This document shows positions 5,948-55,937 of a stretch of 64,000 nucleotides of DNA, piece by piece. The first letter of the stretch is position 1, and every line of letters begins with the position of its first letter. Below the pieces are notes generated by a model. The model did no database searches. It was not told where the DNA came from and was given only the letters and a program-made list of their open reading frames with translations. Source of the stretch: an uncultured Prevotellaceae bacterium (lineage in GTDB: Bacteria > Bacteroidota > Bacteroidia > Bacteroidales > Muribaculaceae); NCBI GenBank assembly GCA_900318205.1, contig ONJS01000004.1, forward strand, positions 124,001-188,000. The letters are read 5' to 3'. The position numbers and the translations under genes were made by a program.

Positions 5948-6616
5948 TCAATCCTGCCGGTTTTCACTGTTTGATTTATGCATCCGATTATAGATGATGG
6001 CCAAGTGGGCATAGATCGAGGTGTTGGCAATCACCACATCCTCGGGGGCCTTGATGCGGTAAGGCGTGAAGTTCCACAACGCCGTAACGCCACTGGCAAT
6101 TGCCAGGTCAGCGGTCTCTTGGGCCCGCTCGACAGGCACTGTCAAGATGGCGATTGACGCATGGTGCTCACTCATCCATGAGGGCATCTCGTTGATGTCA
6201 AGCACGGGCAGACCGCCCAGGTGCTTGCCGATGACCTCGCTGCGCACGTCAAAACCAGCCACGATGTTCAGGCCGTAGTTTTCCAGACCGCGGTCCTGCA
6301 TCAGCGCAGTTCCCAGGCTACCGGTACCGATGACCACTGCATCATGCTTGCGGTTGAAGCCCAGGAAATTCTCAAGCTCCATCAGCAGGCTACGCACCTC
6401 ATAGCCAATGCGCGTCTTGCCACGAATATTGAGAAAAGACAAGTCCTTGGCAATCTGGGACGACTGTACATTCAACTCCTTGGAAATCTGAGTCGATGAC
6501 ACATACTCGACATGAAGGTTGTCAAGCATACGCACATAGGACAGATACCAGGGCAGACGACGTATTGTCGGCTCAGGCAGAATCATCTGTTGCTCATTAT
6601 TCTTGGTCATGCTCAT
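5948..6616 (-). CDS. rex: redox-sensing transcriptional repressor Rex
   Basis: About 222 residues. The N-terminal winged helix is visible as PEPTIRRLPWYLSYVRML, then STQISKELNVQSSQIAKDLSFL and RGKTRIGYEV. The C-terminal Rossmann domain has the nucleotide-binding motif VVIGTGSLGTAL followed by IVAGFDVR. The tail LWNFTPYRIKAPEDVVI with NTSIYAHLAII is the domain-swapped helix region of Rex. Rex senses the NADH/NAD+ ratio and represses fermentation and respiratory genes when NADH is low. I start at the ATG at 6616; a further ATG at 6610 is also possible, and the only longer frame would use TTG. A promoter lies just upstream (6640-6673). In Bacteroidetes, Rex commonly heads a short operon. The assignment is strong. 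Confidence 0.93.
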   Translation of the reverse strand: MSMTKNNEQQMILPEPTIRRLPWYLSYVRMLDNLHVEYVSSTQISKELNVQSSQIAKDLSFLNIRGKTRIGYEVRSLLMELENFLGFNRKHDAVVIGTGSLGTALMQDRGLENYGLNIVAGFDVRSEVIGKHLGGLPVLDINEMPSWMSEHHASIAILTVPVERAQETADLAIASGVTALWNFTPYRIKAPEDVVIANTSIYAHLAIIYNRMHKSNSENRQD

Positions 6617-11117: not shown

Positions 11118-11162
11118 CTAGATTTTCAAGAATCTCTAGATGGTCTAGACAATCGAGAGAAG
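11118..11162. repeat. 5 x 9-bp array between permease and PPTase genes
   Basis: Units: ctagatttt, caagaatct, ctagatggt, ctagacaat, cgagagaag. The period is exactly 9 bp, with CTAGA at the start of three units and close variants in the others. It fills most of the 79-bp spacer. Confidence 0.75.
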
Positions 11163-12442: not shown

Positions 12443-13609
12443 TCAGGGCACATACACAGGGTTCATGCACTCTTTCTTCAAGCGCCATGACAACAGCATG
12501 GGCAGGATGGTGAACCCGATGAGTGCAGCATAATAAACTCTTGAATAATACAGGTCGATACCGTTCAGTGCCTGATCCACCATGATCAGGAAATAGTACT
12601 TGATGGGCATCACATAACCCAGCGCCGTTACCCACGGGTACATCGACTCTTGAGGCAAAGAGAAGCCCGAGAACGAGAACGACACCATACCCAGCAGCGT
12701 ACACAGCATCGTGCCGTAGCGGAAGTTGGGAACGAAACAGAACATCAGTACCGCAAAGCTCTGGTTGGCCACCACGAGCAGGAACATCGCGATGAGCATG
12801 TTCCACGGGTTACAGTTCAGCGGGAAATCAAAGCAGCGATACATCATCCACTGGACGAACCAGCCCACGACAGTGAACAGCACCGTCTGCGGCACCAACT
12901 TGCCCACCAGGGCAAGGAACATGCTACCGCCCGAGGTCTTGAGCCACTGGCGGCTAAGGCCCGATTTCAACTCCAGTCCTAACGAGAACGCAGTTACCAA
13001 CAGGATGAACAGCGACAGGAAACAAGGCACAAACGTGCTGTTCAGGTAGTAATTGTAGTTGACAAAGGGGTTGCTGATCATGTGCACATGGGTCTGATAG
13101 GGCACCAAGGCTGATTCTATCGTCTGATTGCTGAGTCCCACGGTGCGCAATGCCGTCTGCACAATACCACCGTTGACGAGCAACGAGATGGTCTTGAAGC
13201 CCTTGTACTGCATCGAGGCGGGGGCATAGTAGGCATAGTTCACATAGTAGCTCACCACAGGCTGACGACCACCCAACGCTTCCTCCTCCAAATAATCGGG
13301 AATGAAGAAGAAGCCATATATCTCACCGCGTTGCACGGCATCGCGAGCCTCGGCAAAGTTGTTGTAACGCTGGCAGATGTTCACCTGCTGGAAACCGTTC
13401 AGGTTGCGCGAGATGCGACGCGACAAGCTGCTGTTATCCAAATCGACGATGCCTACAGGCACACGCTGTACCGAGCCGTCCTTGATCAAATCCATCAGGA
13501 ACCAGCTGCACAGCAACGGCATGATAACGATCAACAGGAAATACATGGGGCGCCGCACGAGTTGGATGCACCCGCGTTTAAAGGAACGACCTATGTATTT
13601 CAGTATCAT
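12443..13609 (-). CDS. ABC-2 type transporter permease (YhhJ/YbhS-like), first subunit
   Basis: 388 residues. An N-terminal membrane segment (RPMYFLLIVIMPLLCSWFLM) precedes a periplasmic domain with VPVGIVDLDNSSLSRRISR, the conserved start of this domain in YhiP/YbhS-type permeases. Five further hydrophobic segments follow (FVPCFLSLFILLVTAFSLG onward), and FSGFSLPQESMYPWVTALGYVMPIKYYF is the family's characteristic motif before the last segment. It pairs with the downstream paralogue as a heterodimeric permease. The gene follows the HlyD gene after an 85-bp spacer that is almost wholly filled by a composite repeat array. Confidence 0.87.
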   Translation of the reverse strand: MILKYIGRSFKRGCIQLVRRPMYFLLIVIMPLLCSWFLMDLIKDGSVQRVPVGIVDLDNSSLSRRISRNLNGFQQVNICQRYNNFAEARDAVQRGEIYGFFFIPDYLEEEALGGRQPVVSYYVNYAYYAPASMQYKGFKTISLLVNGGIVQTALRTVGLSNQTIESALVPYQTHVHMISNPFVNYNYYLNSTFVPCFLSLFILLVTAFSLGLELKSGLSRQWLKTSGGSMFLALVGKLVPQTVLFTVVGWFVQWMMYRCFDFPLNCNPWNMLIAMFLLVVANQSFAVLMFCFVPNFRYGTMLCTLLGMVSFSFSGFSLPQESMYPWVTALGYVMPIKYYFLIMVDQALNGIDLYYSRVYYAALIGFTILPMLLSWRLKKECMNPVYVP

Positions 13610-13689
13610 TAGTTGTCAGTTTTTAGTTGTCAGTTTTCAGTTGTCTAGAGTCTCTAGATATTCTAGATAATCTAGATGGTCTAGATATT
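13610..13689. repeat. composite array: 5 x 7 bp joined to 5 x 9 bp
   Basis: 13610-13644 holds five heptamers: tagttgt, cagtttt, tagttgt, cagtttt, cagttgt. Immediately after, 13645-13689 holds five nonamers: ctagagtct, ctagatatt, ctagataat, ctagatggt, ctagatatt. The 80 bp fill the spacer between the HlyD stop and the permease start with no spare unit. Confidence 0.85.
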
Positions 13690-13694
13690 GTTTC

Positions 13695-14705
13695 TTATTT
13701 TTCCAGGATGACCGACATGCCGGGGCGCAGGTTAGGCACCTTGCTCACGGGACGCATCTTCACCTCAAAGGTCTTGCTGTCATATTGGCCCTGGGCCTTA
13801 GCAGCCTGCCAAACGGCATAGCTGCCCATGTCGTGGATATAATAAACCGACATCTTGGTCTGCATATTGTTCAGCGCGGGAATGCGCACGTTCACTTCCT
13901 TGCCCATGGGCAGGTCGTTCAACATCTCCTCACGCACACTGAAGCTTACCCACATCTCGTCCAACTTGGCAATCGACATGATGGGGCTTCCCATGGCCAC
14001 GAGCTCACCCTCCTGCGGGTAGATCTCGCTCACCTCGCCGTCACAGGGAGCCACAAGCACCTGGTCCTCGAGCAGGCTCTCAACCTCCATGACCGAGCCA
14101 CGGGCGGCGTTGGCCATGCTGCGGGAAGCGTTCTTATCCTCCTGCTGGGCACCACGCACGGCCATGTCATACTGTGCCTTGGCAGCCTTGACTTGGGCTG
14201 TGGCGGCATCAAATGCGGCCCTGGCCTCGTCACGCTTCTGCTGGGTGGCGACACCCTGCTTGAAGAGGTTCTCTACGCGCTGATAAGTCTTTTCGGCGAT
14301 AGTCTGGGCAGCAACAGCCTGTTGCCACAGGTTATAGGCGCTCTGCTTCAGCTCCTCGCGGGTACCTTTCTCGGCCTTCTGGTTCTGGGATGCGGCAGCC
14401 TGCTGCATCTGCTTGGCCTGATAGTACTTGGCATCGACGGTGCTGGAGTAGATGCTCACCAGCTTGTCGCCCTTGTGTACCGTGTCACCCTCGTGCACAT
14501 AGAAACGCACGATGCGTCCAGGCAGCTTGCCGCTCACGCGCACGGCGTCACAGTCGGCCTGGCCCTGGGTAATCGTGTCGGCAGGATGGATGAGCAGGAT
14601 GCCCACAATGGCGATACTTGCCATCACCAGTGCAAACACTGCCAGGGCAGCCAGCAATGCTTTGTCCTTCTTGCGGACCACAGTTCTCTGTTCGTCTTTT
14701 TCCAT
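13695..14705 (-). CDS. HlyD-family periplasmic adaptor (membrane fusion) subunit
   Basis: 336 residues. A basic cytoplasmic N-terminus is followed by one membrane segment (LLAALAVFALVMASIAIVGILLI). The lipoyl/barrel-sandwich half-motif GKLPGRIVRFYVHEGDTVHKGDKL is classic for HlyD/EmrA adaptors. A long alpha-helical hairpin rich in A, Q, K and E runs from about residue 95 to 200, then the second lipoyl half LVAPCDGEVSEIYPQEGELV and the beta-barrel domain. It bridges the inner-membrane ABC-2 permeases to the TolC-like channel. It lies between the TolC gene and the permeases on the same strand. Confidence 0.92.
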   Translation of the reverse strand: MEKDEQRTVVRKKDKALLAALAVFALVMASIAIVGILLIHPADTITQGQADCDAVRVSGKLPGRIVRFYVHEGDTVHKGDKLVSIYSSTVDAKYYQAKQMQQAAASQNQKAEKGTREELKQSAYNLWQQAVAAQTIAEKTYQRVENLFKQGVATQQKRDEARAAFDAATAQVKAAKAQYDMAVRGAQQEDKNASRSMANAARGSVMEVESLLEDQVLVAPCDGEVSEIYPQEGELVAMGSPIMSIAKLDEMWVSFSVREEMLNDLPMGKEVNVRIPALNNMQTKMSVYYIHDMGSYAVWQAAKAQGQYDSKTFEVKMRPVSKVPNLRPGMSVILEK

Positions 14706-14710
14706 ATTCT

Positions 14711-14790
14711 TGTCTCCTGTTTTTTAGTTGTAGTCGTCAATTGCTCTAGATTTCTTGGATGTTGTGGATGATCTAGAATAAAAAGCTTAT
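14711..14790. repeat. degenerate composite array between TolC-like and HlyD-like genes
   Basis: Nonamers are recognisable from 14746: ctagatttc, ttggatgtt, gtggatgat, ctagaataa, with a doubtful fifth. The preceding 35 bp divide into weak heptamers including tagttgt, agtcgtc and aattgct. The arrangement mirrors 13610-13689, but with lower unit similarity. Confidence 0.5.
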
Positions 14791-20082: not shown

Positions 20083-20115
20083 TATTGACAAAACACCAAC
20101 GATATTGTAATTTTG
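20083..20115 (+). promoter_or_regulatory. promoter of the two-gene unknown cassette
   Basis: ATTG at 20084-20087, 20-nt spacer, TAATTTTG at 20108-20115. It places the transcription start near 20122 and so favours the ATG at 20161 over earlier in-frame starts. It diverges from the promoter at 19873-19904. Confidence 0.75.
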
Positions 20116-20160
20116 CAACGTCAAAATTATTGTTTTACCATTTTAAACACCATTTTTACC

Positions 20161-20640
20161 ATGAAAGACATGAAATCAAGTATCAAGAAGCGCGAACTGT
20201 GCCAGCAGCGTGACAAGGAGTTTCTAGCGCTCTACCACCCTACCCTCGACGCCCTGGTCGAGCAGGGCATACCCATGAGCAAGGCACGCCGTGCTGCCGT
20301 TGAATTCACTATAGCCAACGGCCATCCTCACTACCACGTGGAGCACGAACGCGCTTACCGCTGCGTGTGCCACCTGCTGAGTGCCGAGCAAAAGAAGGCG
20401 TGCAACGCCCGCACCTACCGCACCAGCGAGGAAATGGGACTGCCCAAACACCGCCTGCGCCAACAGATGTGGTATGAAATCACCCGACAAGTCGCCGCCC
20501 TGCGAGATCGCGGCATGAGCATTGAGAACGCCATCGACCATGTGCTGGAGCACTGCCGCGCCTCGCGCTTCTTCATCTCTCCCGTCACCGCGCTGACCAA
20601 AATCTGCCCTCAGGCCCGCACACGCGCCATAAGGAGTTAG
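20161..20640 (+). CDS. unknown cytoplasmic protein, 159 residues
   Basis: I do not recognise this gene. It is basic and helix-rich (MKDMKSSIKKRELCQQRDKEF at the start), with a conserved-looking block GIPMSKARRAAVEFTIANGHPHYHVEHERAYRCV and a later RTSEEMGLPKHRLRQQMWYEITRQ segment that could be a helix-turn-helix. There is no signal peptide and no membrane segment. The upstream promoter and translated codon pattern suggest it is real. Its stop codon lies inside the first heptamer of the composite array at 20634. The following gene is another small unknown on the same strand, 99 bp away. Possible DNA-binding protein, not shown. Confidence 0.6.
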   Translation: MKDMKSSIKKRELCQQRDKEFLALYHPTLDALVEQGIPMSKARRAAVEFTIANGHPHYHVEHERAYRCVCHLLSAEQKKACNARTYRTSEEMGLPKHRLRQQMWYEITRQVAALRDRGMSIENAIDHVLEHCRASRFFISPVTALTKICPQARTRAIRS

Positions 20641-20713
20641 GAGTTAGAAGTGAGAAGTGAGGAGTTCTAGAATATCTAGAGTATCTAGAGCATCCAGGAG
20701 ATCTAGAAAGTAT
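20634..20713. repeat. composite array: 5 x 7 bp joined to 5 x 9 bp
   Basis: 20634-20668: gagttag, gagttag, aagtgag, aagtgag, gagttct. 20669-20713: agaatatct, agagtatct, agagcatcc, aggagatct, agaaagtat. The total is exactly 80 bp, the same size and order as at 13610-13689 although the unit sequences differ. It spans the gap between the two unknown genes and includes the stop of the first. Confidence 0.85.
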
Positions 20714-20739: not shown

Positions 20740-21150
20740 ATGAAATACCGCATTGATATCGTAATAGACCTGGATGAAATCCAGCAAGCCATTTATACCG
20801 AGGGAGTATGGCACCCCGCCGAGAACGCCACCGCCTGGGGCGTGAACAGTAGTAATGAACCCATCGTTGACCGCCGTGTGCGCGAGGGCCTGGACGATTT
20901 GTTAGCACGCATGAGCGGCTACATCGTGAGCCAGAACATCAACTTCAACCTCGACAGCCAGAATATCATATTGGGGATCGCCATCAAGAAACGCCCGTTG
21001 CTGTCGCTGGCACGGGAGCTGAAAAACGCCATAGTCAGCGCACTTGCCAACTACGCGCTGATGTCACTCTATGGCGATGAGGACAGCATCTATGGCACGG
21101 CATGGCGTCTGCACCGTGCCCGCACGTTGCTGCTCCTGTGCCGCCCATGA
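20740..21150 (+). CDS. unknown protein, 136 residues
   Basis: I do not recognise this gene. It begins MKYRIDIVIDLDEIQQAIYTEG and is of mixed charge, with a helical RRVREGLDDLLARMSGYIV and a hydrophobic PLLSLARELKNAIVSALANYALM. No signal peptide or clear domain is visible. It is co-oriented with the preceding gene across the composite repeat and probably co-transcribed. It ends about 60 bp before the truncated peptidase duplicate. Confidence 0.55.
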   Translation: MKYRIDIVIDLDEIQQAIYTEGVWHPAENATAWGVNSSNEPIVDRRVREGLDDLLARMSGYIVSQNINFNLDSQNIILGIAIKKRPLLSLARELKNAIVSALANYALMSLYGDEDSIYGTAWRLHRARTLLLLCRP

Positions 21151-25431: not shown

Positions 25432-25476
25432 AATAGTCACTATAGTTACTATAGTCACTATAGATATTATAGAACA
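25432..25476. repeat. 5 x 9-bp array after PIG-L gene
   Basis: Units: aatagtcac, tatagttac, tatagtcac, tatagatat, tatagaaca. Exactly five units of 9 bp with TATAG at the start of four. It ends where the terminator stem begins. Confidence 0.85.
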
Positions 25477-35244: not shown

Positions 35245-35289
35245 CTAGGAGATCTAGAACATCTAGATTTTCTAGATTCTCTAAAATAA
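35245..35289. repeat. 5 x 9-bp array between the two peptide transporter genes
   Basis: Units: ctaggagat, ctagaacat, ctagatttt, ctagattct, ctaaaataa. Exactly five units of 9 bp, ending 14 bp before the second transporter's start codon. Confidence 0.85.
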
Positions 35290-55860: not shown

Positions 55861-55937
55861 CACAGTTGACAGTTTTCAGTTGGCAGTTTTTAGCGGCATC
55901 CGCACTCAACTGCCAACTGAGAACTAAAAACTAAAAT
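55861..55937. repeat. eleven-unit heptamer array between SPFH and Arc-like genes
   Basis: Units: cacagtt, gacagtt, ttcagtt, ggcagtt, tttagcg, gcatccg, cactcaa, ctgccaa, ctgagaa, ctaaaaa, ctaaaat. The first four end CAGTT; most of the last five start CT and end AA. CAGTTGGCAGTT and AACTGCCAACTG-type parts are complementary, so it can fold. Confidence 0.78.

Follow-up and report, generated by a model that had tools for sequence, protein, structure and literature searches.

In the spacer between an HlyD-type gene and an ABC-2 permease gene of an uncultured Prevotellaceae bacterium, five tandem units of 7 bp (heptads) adjoin five units of 9 bp (nonads), and the same arrangement occurs at a second site between two other genes; the question arises whether such spacers hold one composite element of fixed size, as the sequence-only reading of this DNA had it, or parts of a wider system, and what maintains them. 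The window is the whole stretch of 64,000 nucleotides that was analysed; it belongs to a genome (G000) of 3.62 Mb. Another genome of the genus, G425, agrees with the record of Candidatus Sodaliphilus fimicaballi in array sequence, position and hit count, which makes Sodaliphilus (Muribaculaceae) the probable genus. The arrays of both sites are part of a system that extends across this genus, in which the fixed feature is the order and direction of the blocks relative to stop and start codons, a feature absent from the earlier reading. The arrays are taken, at a probability of about 0.5, for tandem binding sites by which the boundaries of genes are marked in the transcript.

Arrays in the window

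Genes were longest-ORF calls made without annotation, and spacers were inferred from those calls. At site 1 the 5 × 7 bp and 5 × 9 bp described earlier are exact, with zero leftover bases, and the HlyD-type and ABC-2 permease neighbours were confirmed by Pfam (Table 1). The second arrangement of 35 + 45 bp is likewise real, its position being 20632-20711 instead of 20634-20713; the TAG stop codon of the upstream ORF, ending at 20640, falls within its heptads. The statement that the two sites differ in unit sequence holds for the heptads, which are of different types, but not for the nonads, which share one core, CTAGA.

Table 1: Positions of arrays and neighbouring genes (window coordinates unless a stretch is named).
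Feature	Position	Strand	Remarks
Site 1, five AACTRA-type heptads	13610..13644	-	sense AACTGAA/AACTGAC/AACTAAA; array end directly at ATG of downstream gene
Site 1, five TCTAGANNN nonads	13645..13689	-	between HlyD stop and heptads; forward-strand 9-mers start CTAGA
ABC-2 permease gene, downstream of site 1	12443..13609	-	PF12698
HlyD-type membrane-fusion gene, upstream of site 1	13695..14705	-	PF16576
Site 2, five AGTTAGR/AGTGAGR heptads	20632..20666	+	TRF period 7, 5.0 copies
Site 2, five nonads, fourth degenerate (CCAGGAGAT)	20667..20711	+	
ORF upstream of site 2	20113..20640	+	Pfam: no match
ORF downstream of site 2	20740..21150	+	Pfam: no match
Four-phase nonad array, one decayed unit, operon spacer	11118..11149	-	
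Decayed nonad array, CTAG left at both ends only	14746..14777	-	intact array in G426 orthologous spacer
AGTTAGG-type heptads just 3' of stop codon	16377..16408	-	
Four nonads, co-directional spacer	35245..35276	+	
Second nonad family, core CTATAG, period 9, convergent spacer	25433..25473	.	
Two heptad arrays, inverted repeats flanking CGGCATCCGC	55862..55936	+	kept in G426
Five TAGATAN heptads, first at stop codon	61243..61277	+	G426: one substitution
Twelve nonads from the gene's own TAG stop, then terminator-like hairpin	L034:6272-6375		five units in G426
TCTAGA nonad loci of Victivallales/Lentisphaeria/Kiritimatiellae/Verrucomicrobia	L205, L212, L221, L234, L235, L237, L238, L260, L266, L274, L275, L290, L293, L298, L300, L302, L304, L308		

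The site-1 spacer of the sister genome G426 has six nonads and fewer heptads than site 1 of the window; five nonads stand at this position in G449 and four in G403. At wider distances the spacer turns over (nonads, various heptads, both or neither; 30 genus genomes), and on the HlyD gene tree the site-1 nonads lie on scattered branches, 12 of the 27 inner branches being open.

Excess over chance and unit numbers

Chance expectation was estimated on 457,907 bp of the window's genome (253 inferred spacers; array, at least 18 matches in 24). This sample is enriched for nonads, since 17 of the 20 stretches added to it (all except L033, L038 and L050) were chosen at CTAGA hits. Its spacers contained 51 period-7 and 28 period-9 arrays, where five dinucleotide shuffles gave 0.0 and 0.2 on average; tested periods other than multiples of 7 or 9 gave 0-3 arrays, and 14, 18 and 21 are harmonics. 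Genome-wide, CTAGAN4 (×3) was matched 79 + 61 times vs 0 for the reversed-pattern control, and AGTTN3 (×4) 137 + 144 times vs 0 for its control. The arrays thus exceed chance, as had been expected from the two sites.

Block size fared otherwise. With a minimum of three units in every search (CTAG chains, strict nonad arrays, heptads), 25 CTAG chains were composed of 3 (1 chain), 4 (11), 5 (8), 6 (1), 7 (2), 9 (1) and 12 (1) units; 74 distinct strict nonad arrays from several genomes, of 3 (16), 4 (29), 5 (22), 6 (4), 7 (2) and 12 (1); heptad arrays, of 3-16, five not being a peak. Intact nonads at orthologous spacers numbered 5 vs 6, 12 vs 5, 5 vs 4, 5 vs 6 and 7 vs 5, so that unit number changes between relatives, and by whole units, as in slippage-type repeats. 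Fixed five-unit blocks are therefore abandoned: broad counts, the outcome that the sequence-only reading had itself named as speaking against the number five, were obtained, unit number is loosely set, and the 5 + 5 of both sites is a coincidence within a common pattern. Abutment of 7-blocks on 9-blocks does recur, with the junction AGGAGTT/CTAGA at three loci (window 20640, L036:8304 and L036:11550); nonads and heptads were combined in 14 spacers under looser criteria, and 26 of the 35 nonad arrays in co-directional spacers had no heptad block under stricter ones. A single composite element of five 7-mers and five 9-mers, suggested by the two sites, is hardly credible in view of these counts, of blocks that mostly stand alone, of differing orthologues and of NNN identity across arrays of just 2.9%.

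Order, direction and position of the blocks

On the coding strand the blocks follow the order stop codon, TTAG/AGTKAG heptads, TCTAGANNN nonads, AACTRA heptads, start codon, and any of the blocks may be absent. All 21 composite spacers (two or more block kinds; 12 in G000, 8 in G426, 1 elsewhere) obeyed it with 0 reversals, at least four orthologous G000/G426 pairs among them leaving at most 17 independent cases; only sense-oriented blocks entered this count, direction being tested separately. All three blocks were present in one of the 21 (L177:4115-4245). In 402 co-directional spacers, sense and antisense arrays numbered 31 and 2 (AACTRA), 15 and 0 (AGTKAG), 36 and 9 (TTAG); the nine antisense TTAG arrays comprise five in which CTAA is part of AACTAA units and four CTAA heptads outside both classes (L042:10063, L049:7765, L174:5124, L185:5823). 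AACTRA arrays end at a median of 6 nt 5' of the start codon; AGTKAG arrays start at -6 from the stop, and the stop codon is often part of the first AGTKAG/TTAG unit.

Nonads occupy spacers behind stop codons and are rare in divergent ones: co-directional 37/434, convergent 10/115, divergent 1/99; behind a stop vs divergent, 47/549 vs 1/99 (Fisher P 0.005). The lone divergent case is a spacer with a mis-called ORF, upstream of the HlyD gene of G443; among the matches listed, three apparent divergent arrays were noted in a second Bacteroidota set, which leaves out the genomes of the sampled stretches, and one in Victivallales and relatives (PVC). A coding reading of the nonads as L-D-x peptides (some units being CTA GAN NNN) was considered; the array at L034:6272 starts at the TAG stop of the upstream gene, and about seven arrays, read by eye against upstream stops, lie in all three frames, and this reading was therefore dropped.

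The heptads, taken apart from the nonads, could be ladders of stop codons, with TAG, TGA or TAA in each unit and a 7-nt step that reaches all frames, by which read-through or spurious translation would be blocked. Stop triplets were counted in 59/61 and 51/51 AGTNAG units, in 144/147, 78/78 and 66/66 TTAG units, which are stop-bearing by search definition, and in 157/175, 97/122 and 42/46 AACT units, an anchor that also catches reversed AGTT units; as the heptads are oriented, their stops lie on the coding strand, and a T/G swap in AGTKAG turns TAG into TGA or the reverse. Such triplets are, however, AT-rich and common, and period 9 puts TAG in one frame only. The variable heptad positions are moreover restricted in letter use: position 4 of AGTKAG was T 82, G 30, A 0, C 0 (112 units, G000 and G426), and as AGTAAG would keep a stop and is nevertheless absent, more than a stop is preserved. 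Stop-codon ladders are accordingly regarded as quite unlikely.

Conservation and copy memory

Orthologous nonads of G000 and G426 were compared letter by letter; two G426 arrays were omitted from the rates (window|14705, decayed G000 partner; L050|3553, heptads instead). The CTAG core differed at 3/170 letters (5/161 starting from G426), a lower bound because period-9 alignment tends to match cores, although decayed partner units would show; the two outer core letters differed at 5/85 (3/80 from the G426 side), NNN letters at 30/96 in both directions, and four-fold sites of the 138 common genes at 6612/24304 (27%). The nonad core is thus kept about tenfold better than NNN, the rate of which is close to that of four-fold synonymous sites; cores therefore look selected and NNN about neutral. 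Confidence in the pattern itself and in the conservation of the nonad core is high. For the nonads, the comparison of two sister genomes thus tells selection apart from mutation, cores being kept and the intervening letters neutral; together with order and direction on the coding strand, core conservation makes the function of intergenic heptamer-type repeats testable.

A nonad partner was present in G426 for 10/10 arrays of G000, and in G000 for 9/11 arrays of G426. Since partners are retained while unit numbers change, arrays persist and can be old enough for NNN saturation, which fits the near-absent copy memory of the nonads: identical neighbouring NNN, 4.5% vs 2.9% across arrays (74 nonad arrays). 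Neighbour identity of heptads in G000 was 0.23 vs 0.26 random (AACTRA) and 0.28 vs 0.26 (AGTKAG); some copy memory was seen in TTAG[AG]C heptads, 0.20 vs 0.14 in G000 and 0.40 (10 pairs only) vs 0.00 in G426. Some longer arrays (at least five units) elsewhere were near-perfect repeats: among the matches listed, 96 Bacteroidota arrays, which stand in between, had 19.7% identical neighbours vs 3.1% across arrays (60 without identical neighbours; 12 above 50%), and 18 of Victivallales and relatives, 57.4% vs 6.5% (11 of the 18 over half, near-perfect).

Intergenic heptamer repeats are usually put down to polymerase slippage. Applied here, neutral slippage favouring 7- and 9-nt steps would leave functionless arrays of the LSSR/STRR kind; whole-unit differences between orthologues and the identical neighbours of longer arrays speak for it. 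Against it stand neighbours in the genus sample that, TTAG[AG]C excepted, are little more alike than random, the 60 longer arrays mentioned, the conserved core beside neutral NNN, and fixed direction and order. Pure slippage was therefore disfavoured in the genus sample on grounds of unit memory, core conservation and order, although some longer arrays elsewhere still fit; as an explanation of the system it is improbable. According to MacGregor 2015 (PMC4679880), slippage has been proposed for long simple sequence repeats (5-11 nt; Mrazek 2007 as cited there), and among these, heptamers form the largest class in most genomes, which favours slippage; heptamers are prominent in both cases, but the genus sample has little or no copy memory and its nonad cores are conserved.

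Strand bias and pairing of NNN

On the coding strand, A before TCTAGA was found in 67% vs T after it in 31% (n = 111); second Bacteroidota set, 66% vs 20% (n = 184, among the matches listed). Individual arrays in co-directional spacers leaned to the sense strand in 49/67 cases (12 opposite, 6 neutral); convergent arrays leaned towards the nearer stop in 20/33 (8 against, 5 neutral). All three NNN positions of the second set were A-rich on the coding strand, among the matches listed, and the strand bias may therefore partly be plain composition. Pairing between the NNNs on either side of a core is avoided: complementarity of adjacent NNNs was 0.186, vs 0.278 after shuffling (P(le) 0.001); folding of 60 arrays, less stable than that of pooled-NNN arrays (z +0.49 ± 0.11). 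Long hairpins were also considered; mirror complementarity was 0.213 vs 0.298 unoriented and 0.248 vs 0.279 (P 0.22) sense-oriented, the adjacent effect alone being clear, and they were rejected.

REP/BIME elements consist of short palindromes that lie behind genes and seldom between divergent ones, and they are bound by gyrase, Pol I or IHF. The nonads resemble them in the palindromic unit, in their place behind genes and in rarity in divergent spacers (spacer counts above), and differ in lacking the stable palindromic hairpin of 20-40 nt: the units have 9 bp with a six-base palindromic core, NNN complementarity is below that of shuffles, and extended pairing is avoided. In the main competing account, nonads are double-stranded DNA sites, bound by a dimer on the palindrome TCTAGA at nine-base spacing with cooperative filaments behind genes, and act as supercoiling, termination or roadblock sites functionally analogous to REP/BIME, the heptads being separate and RNA-level. 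The strongly conserved palindromic core and the REP/BIME-like distribution agree with it; the strand-biased NNN of two data sets, the avoidance, instead of favouring, of palindrome extension into NNN, and the ordered spacers and junctions shared with strand-specific heptads do not. Strand bias and pairing avoidance point to a motif that is transcribed and single-stranded more than to a symmetrical site in DNA, and the palindromic core keeps the DNA account alive as a serious contender, though a rather unlikely one.

Relation to described repeats

STRRs of filamentous cyanobacteria are dispersed intergenic 7-bp tandem repeats, and to our knowledge neither an ordered 7/9 system nor a structure of conserved core and neutral spacer is known for them. 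Although named earlier as known heptanucleotide repeats, they are not the nearest published relatives of the start-side heptads; the TAACTGA repeats come closer. According to MacGregor 2015 (PMC4679880), these are intergenic heptamer direct repeats in forward orientation, a few nt before starts, in distant lineages including some Bacteroidetes, and a translational role was proposed for them. The start-side heptads share with them the intergenic heptamer, the forward orientation and the closeness to the start codon (31 sense vs 2 antisense; median 6 nt). Tandems of the exact TAACTGA unit were not found, AACTGAT, which is TAACTGA in register, making up 0/134 units in G000 and 2/38 in G426; of the 134 AACTRA units in G000, 48 were AACTGAA, 41 AACTGAC and 20 AACTAAA. 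Having the same place and direction but a different unit, the AACTRA heptads are therefore relatives of the TAACTGA repeats, not members; in addition, stop-side heptads, nine-base TCTAGANNN arrays and a fixed block order occur here. A published description of nonads, stop-side heptad families or block order was not found in one open-licence library of papers.

Occurrence in other genomes

Nonads were present in 47/61 genus genomes (on each strand, pattern hits ranged from 0 to 165), in 1/395 genomes drawn from the phylum (that of the window) and in 2/198 drawn from the order (that of the window and one with a single hit); AACTRA heptads, in 16/149 genomes of an order draw. A scan of genome collections gave at least 114 stretches with nonads; among the matches listed, 18 were MAG contigs of Victivallales, Lentisphaeria, Kiritimatiellae or Verrucomicrobia (Table 1), and most of the other 96 were Bacteroidales or a member group. 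Followed-up genomes with nonads (n = 14) had 6 to 285 hits each; carriers that are probably isolates are Prevotellamassilia timonensis, Prevotella sp. tc2-28 and tf2-5, and Prevotellaceae bacterium MN60. Core switching between species (TCTGGA nonads in 5/61 genus genomes, few hits) and phage spread (4 stretches in the viral collection) were considered and set aside.

Rumen Victivallales and relatives have nonads with the same core, and the contigs may be mis-binned. Three co-directional arrays of this group, among the matches listed, had no strand lean; with their near-copy units, the arrays of Victivallales and relatives may therefore have another history. The arrays of L237 and L274 stand just behind tRNA-like or terminator-like sequence.

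Proposed role of the arrays

Preserved key letters with free drift between them suggest a cellular reader, probably in messenger RNA. The motifs, repeated and single-stranded in the RNA, would be recognised by part of the ribosome or by an RNA-binding protein; start-side heptads may act in translation initiation, as proposed for TAACTGA repeats (PMC4679880), and stop-side heptads and nonads in termination, processing or separation of neighbouring cistrons. Several points weigh against this transcript reading. The core TCTAGA is a palindrome, which is easier to reconcile with a dimer that binds DNA than with a motif in single-stranded RNA. The bias between strands is a statistical one, with 12/67 arrays opposed and convergent arrays less clear. 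Proteins with RRM_1 (PF00076), the obvious candidate readers, were found in 0/61 genus genomes, many of them incomplete (control search, positive in 2/14 named genomes). Pairing avoidance could alternatively come from instability of DNA palindromes. The RNA-level reading of the arrays is put at about one half.

A bolder form of the transcript reading, offered as tentative and rather doubtful, is a genome-wide punctuation code of mRNA in gut and rumen Bacteroidales: ordered degenerate words (stop, UUAG heptads, AUCUAGANN nonads, AACURA heptads, start), selected at their cores, would be recognised by a so far undescribed factor that binds RNA and keeps the translation of neighbouring cistrons apart or couples it.

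Further repeat families

Heptad inverted repeats around a CGGCATCCGC-like centre were seen in operon spacers at L035:4768-4911, L042:3181-3287 and L047:10878-10977, besides the window (Table 1); GCATCCGC occurred 35 + 26 times in 458 kb. CTATAG-core nonads were present, besides the window array, at L032:5828-5956, L042:16491-16551, L049:8327-8436 and L183:17473-17548; by spacer, convergent 5/115, co-directional 4/434, divergent 0/99. More apparent period-9 words (CGAATTNNN, ACGGANNNA) were noted by eye at L042:13881-13975, L042:4601-4896 and in the site-1 spacer of G415, G418 and G443 (L164, L166 and L158). A CTAG-phased repeat at L046:9740-9798 may be a coding L-D/E-G protein repeat instead of an intergenic array. 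Recurrent GCGAGC-type hairpins lay between heptad blocks at L038:2664-2870, L041:17144-17470 and L037:903-1039; TGCTCGC, 53 + 46 copies in 458 kb.
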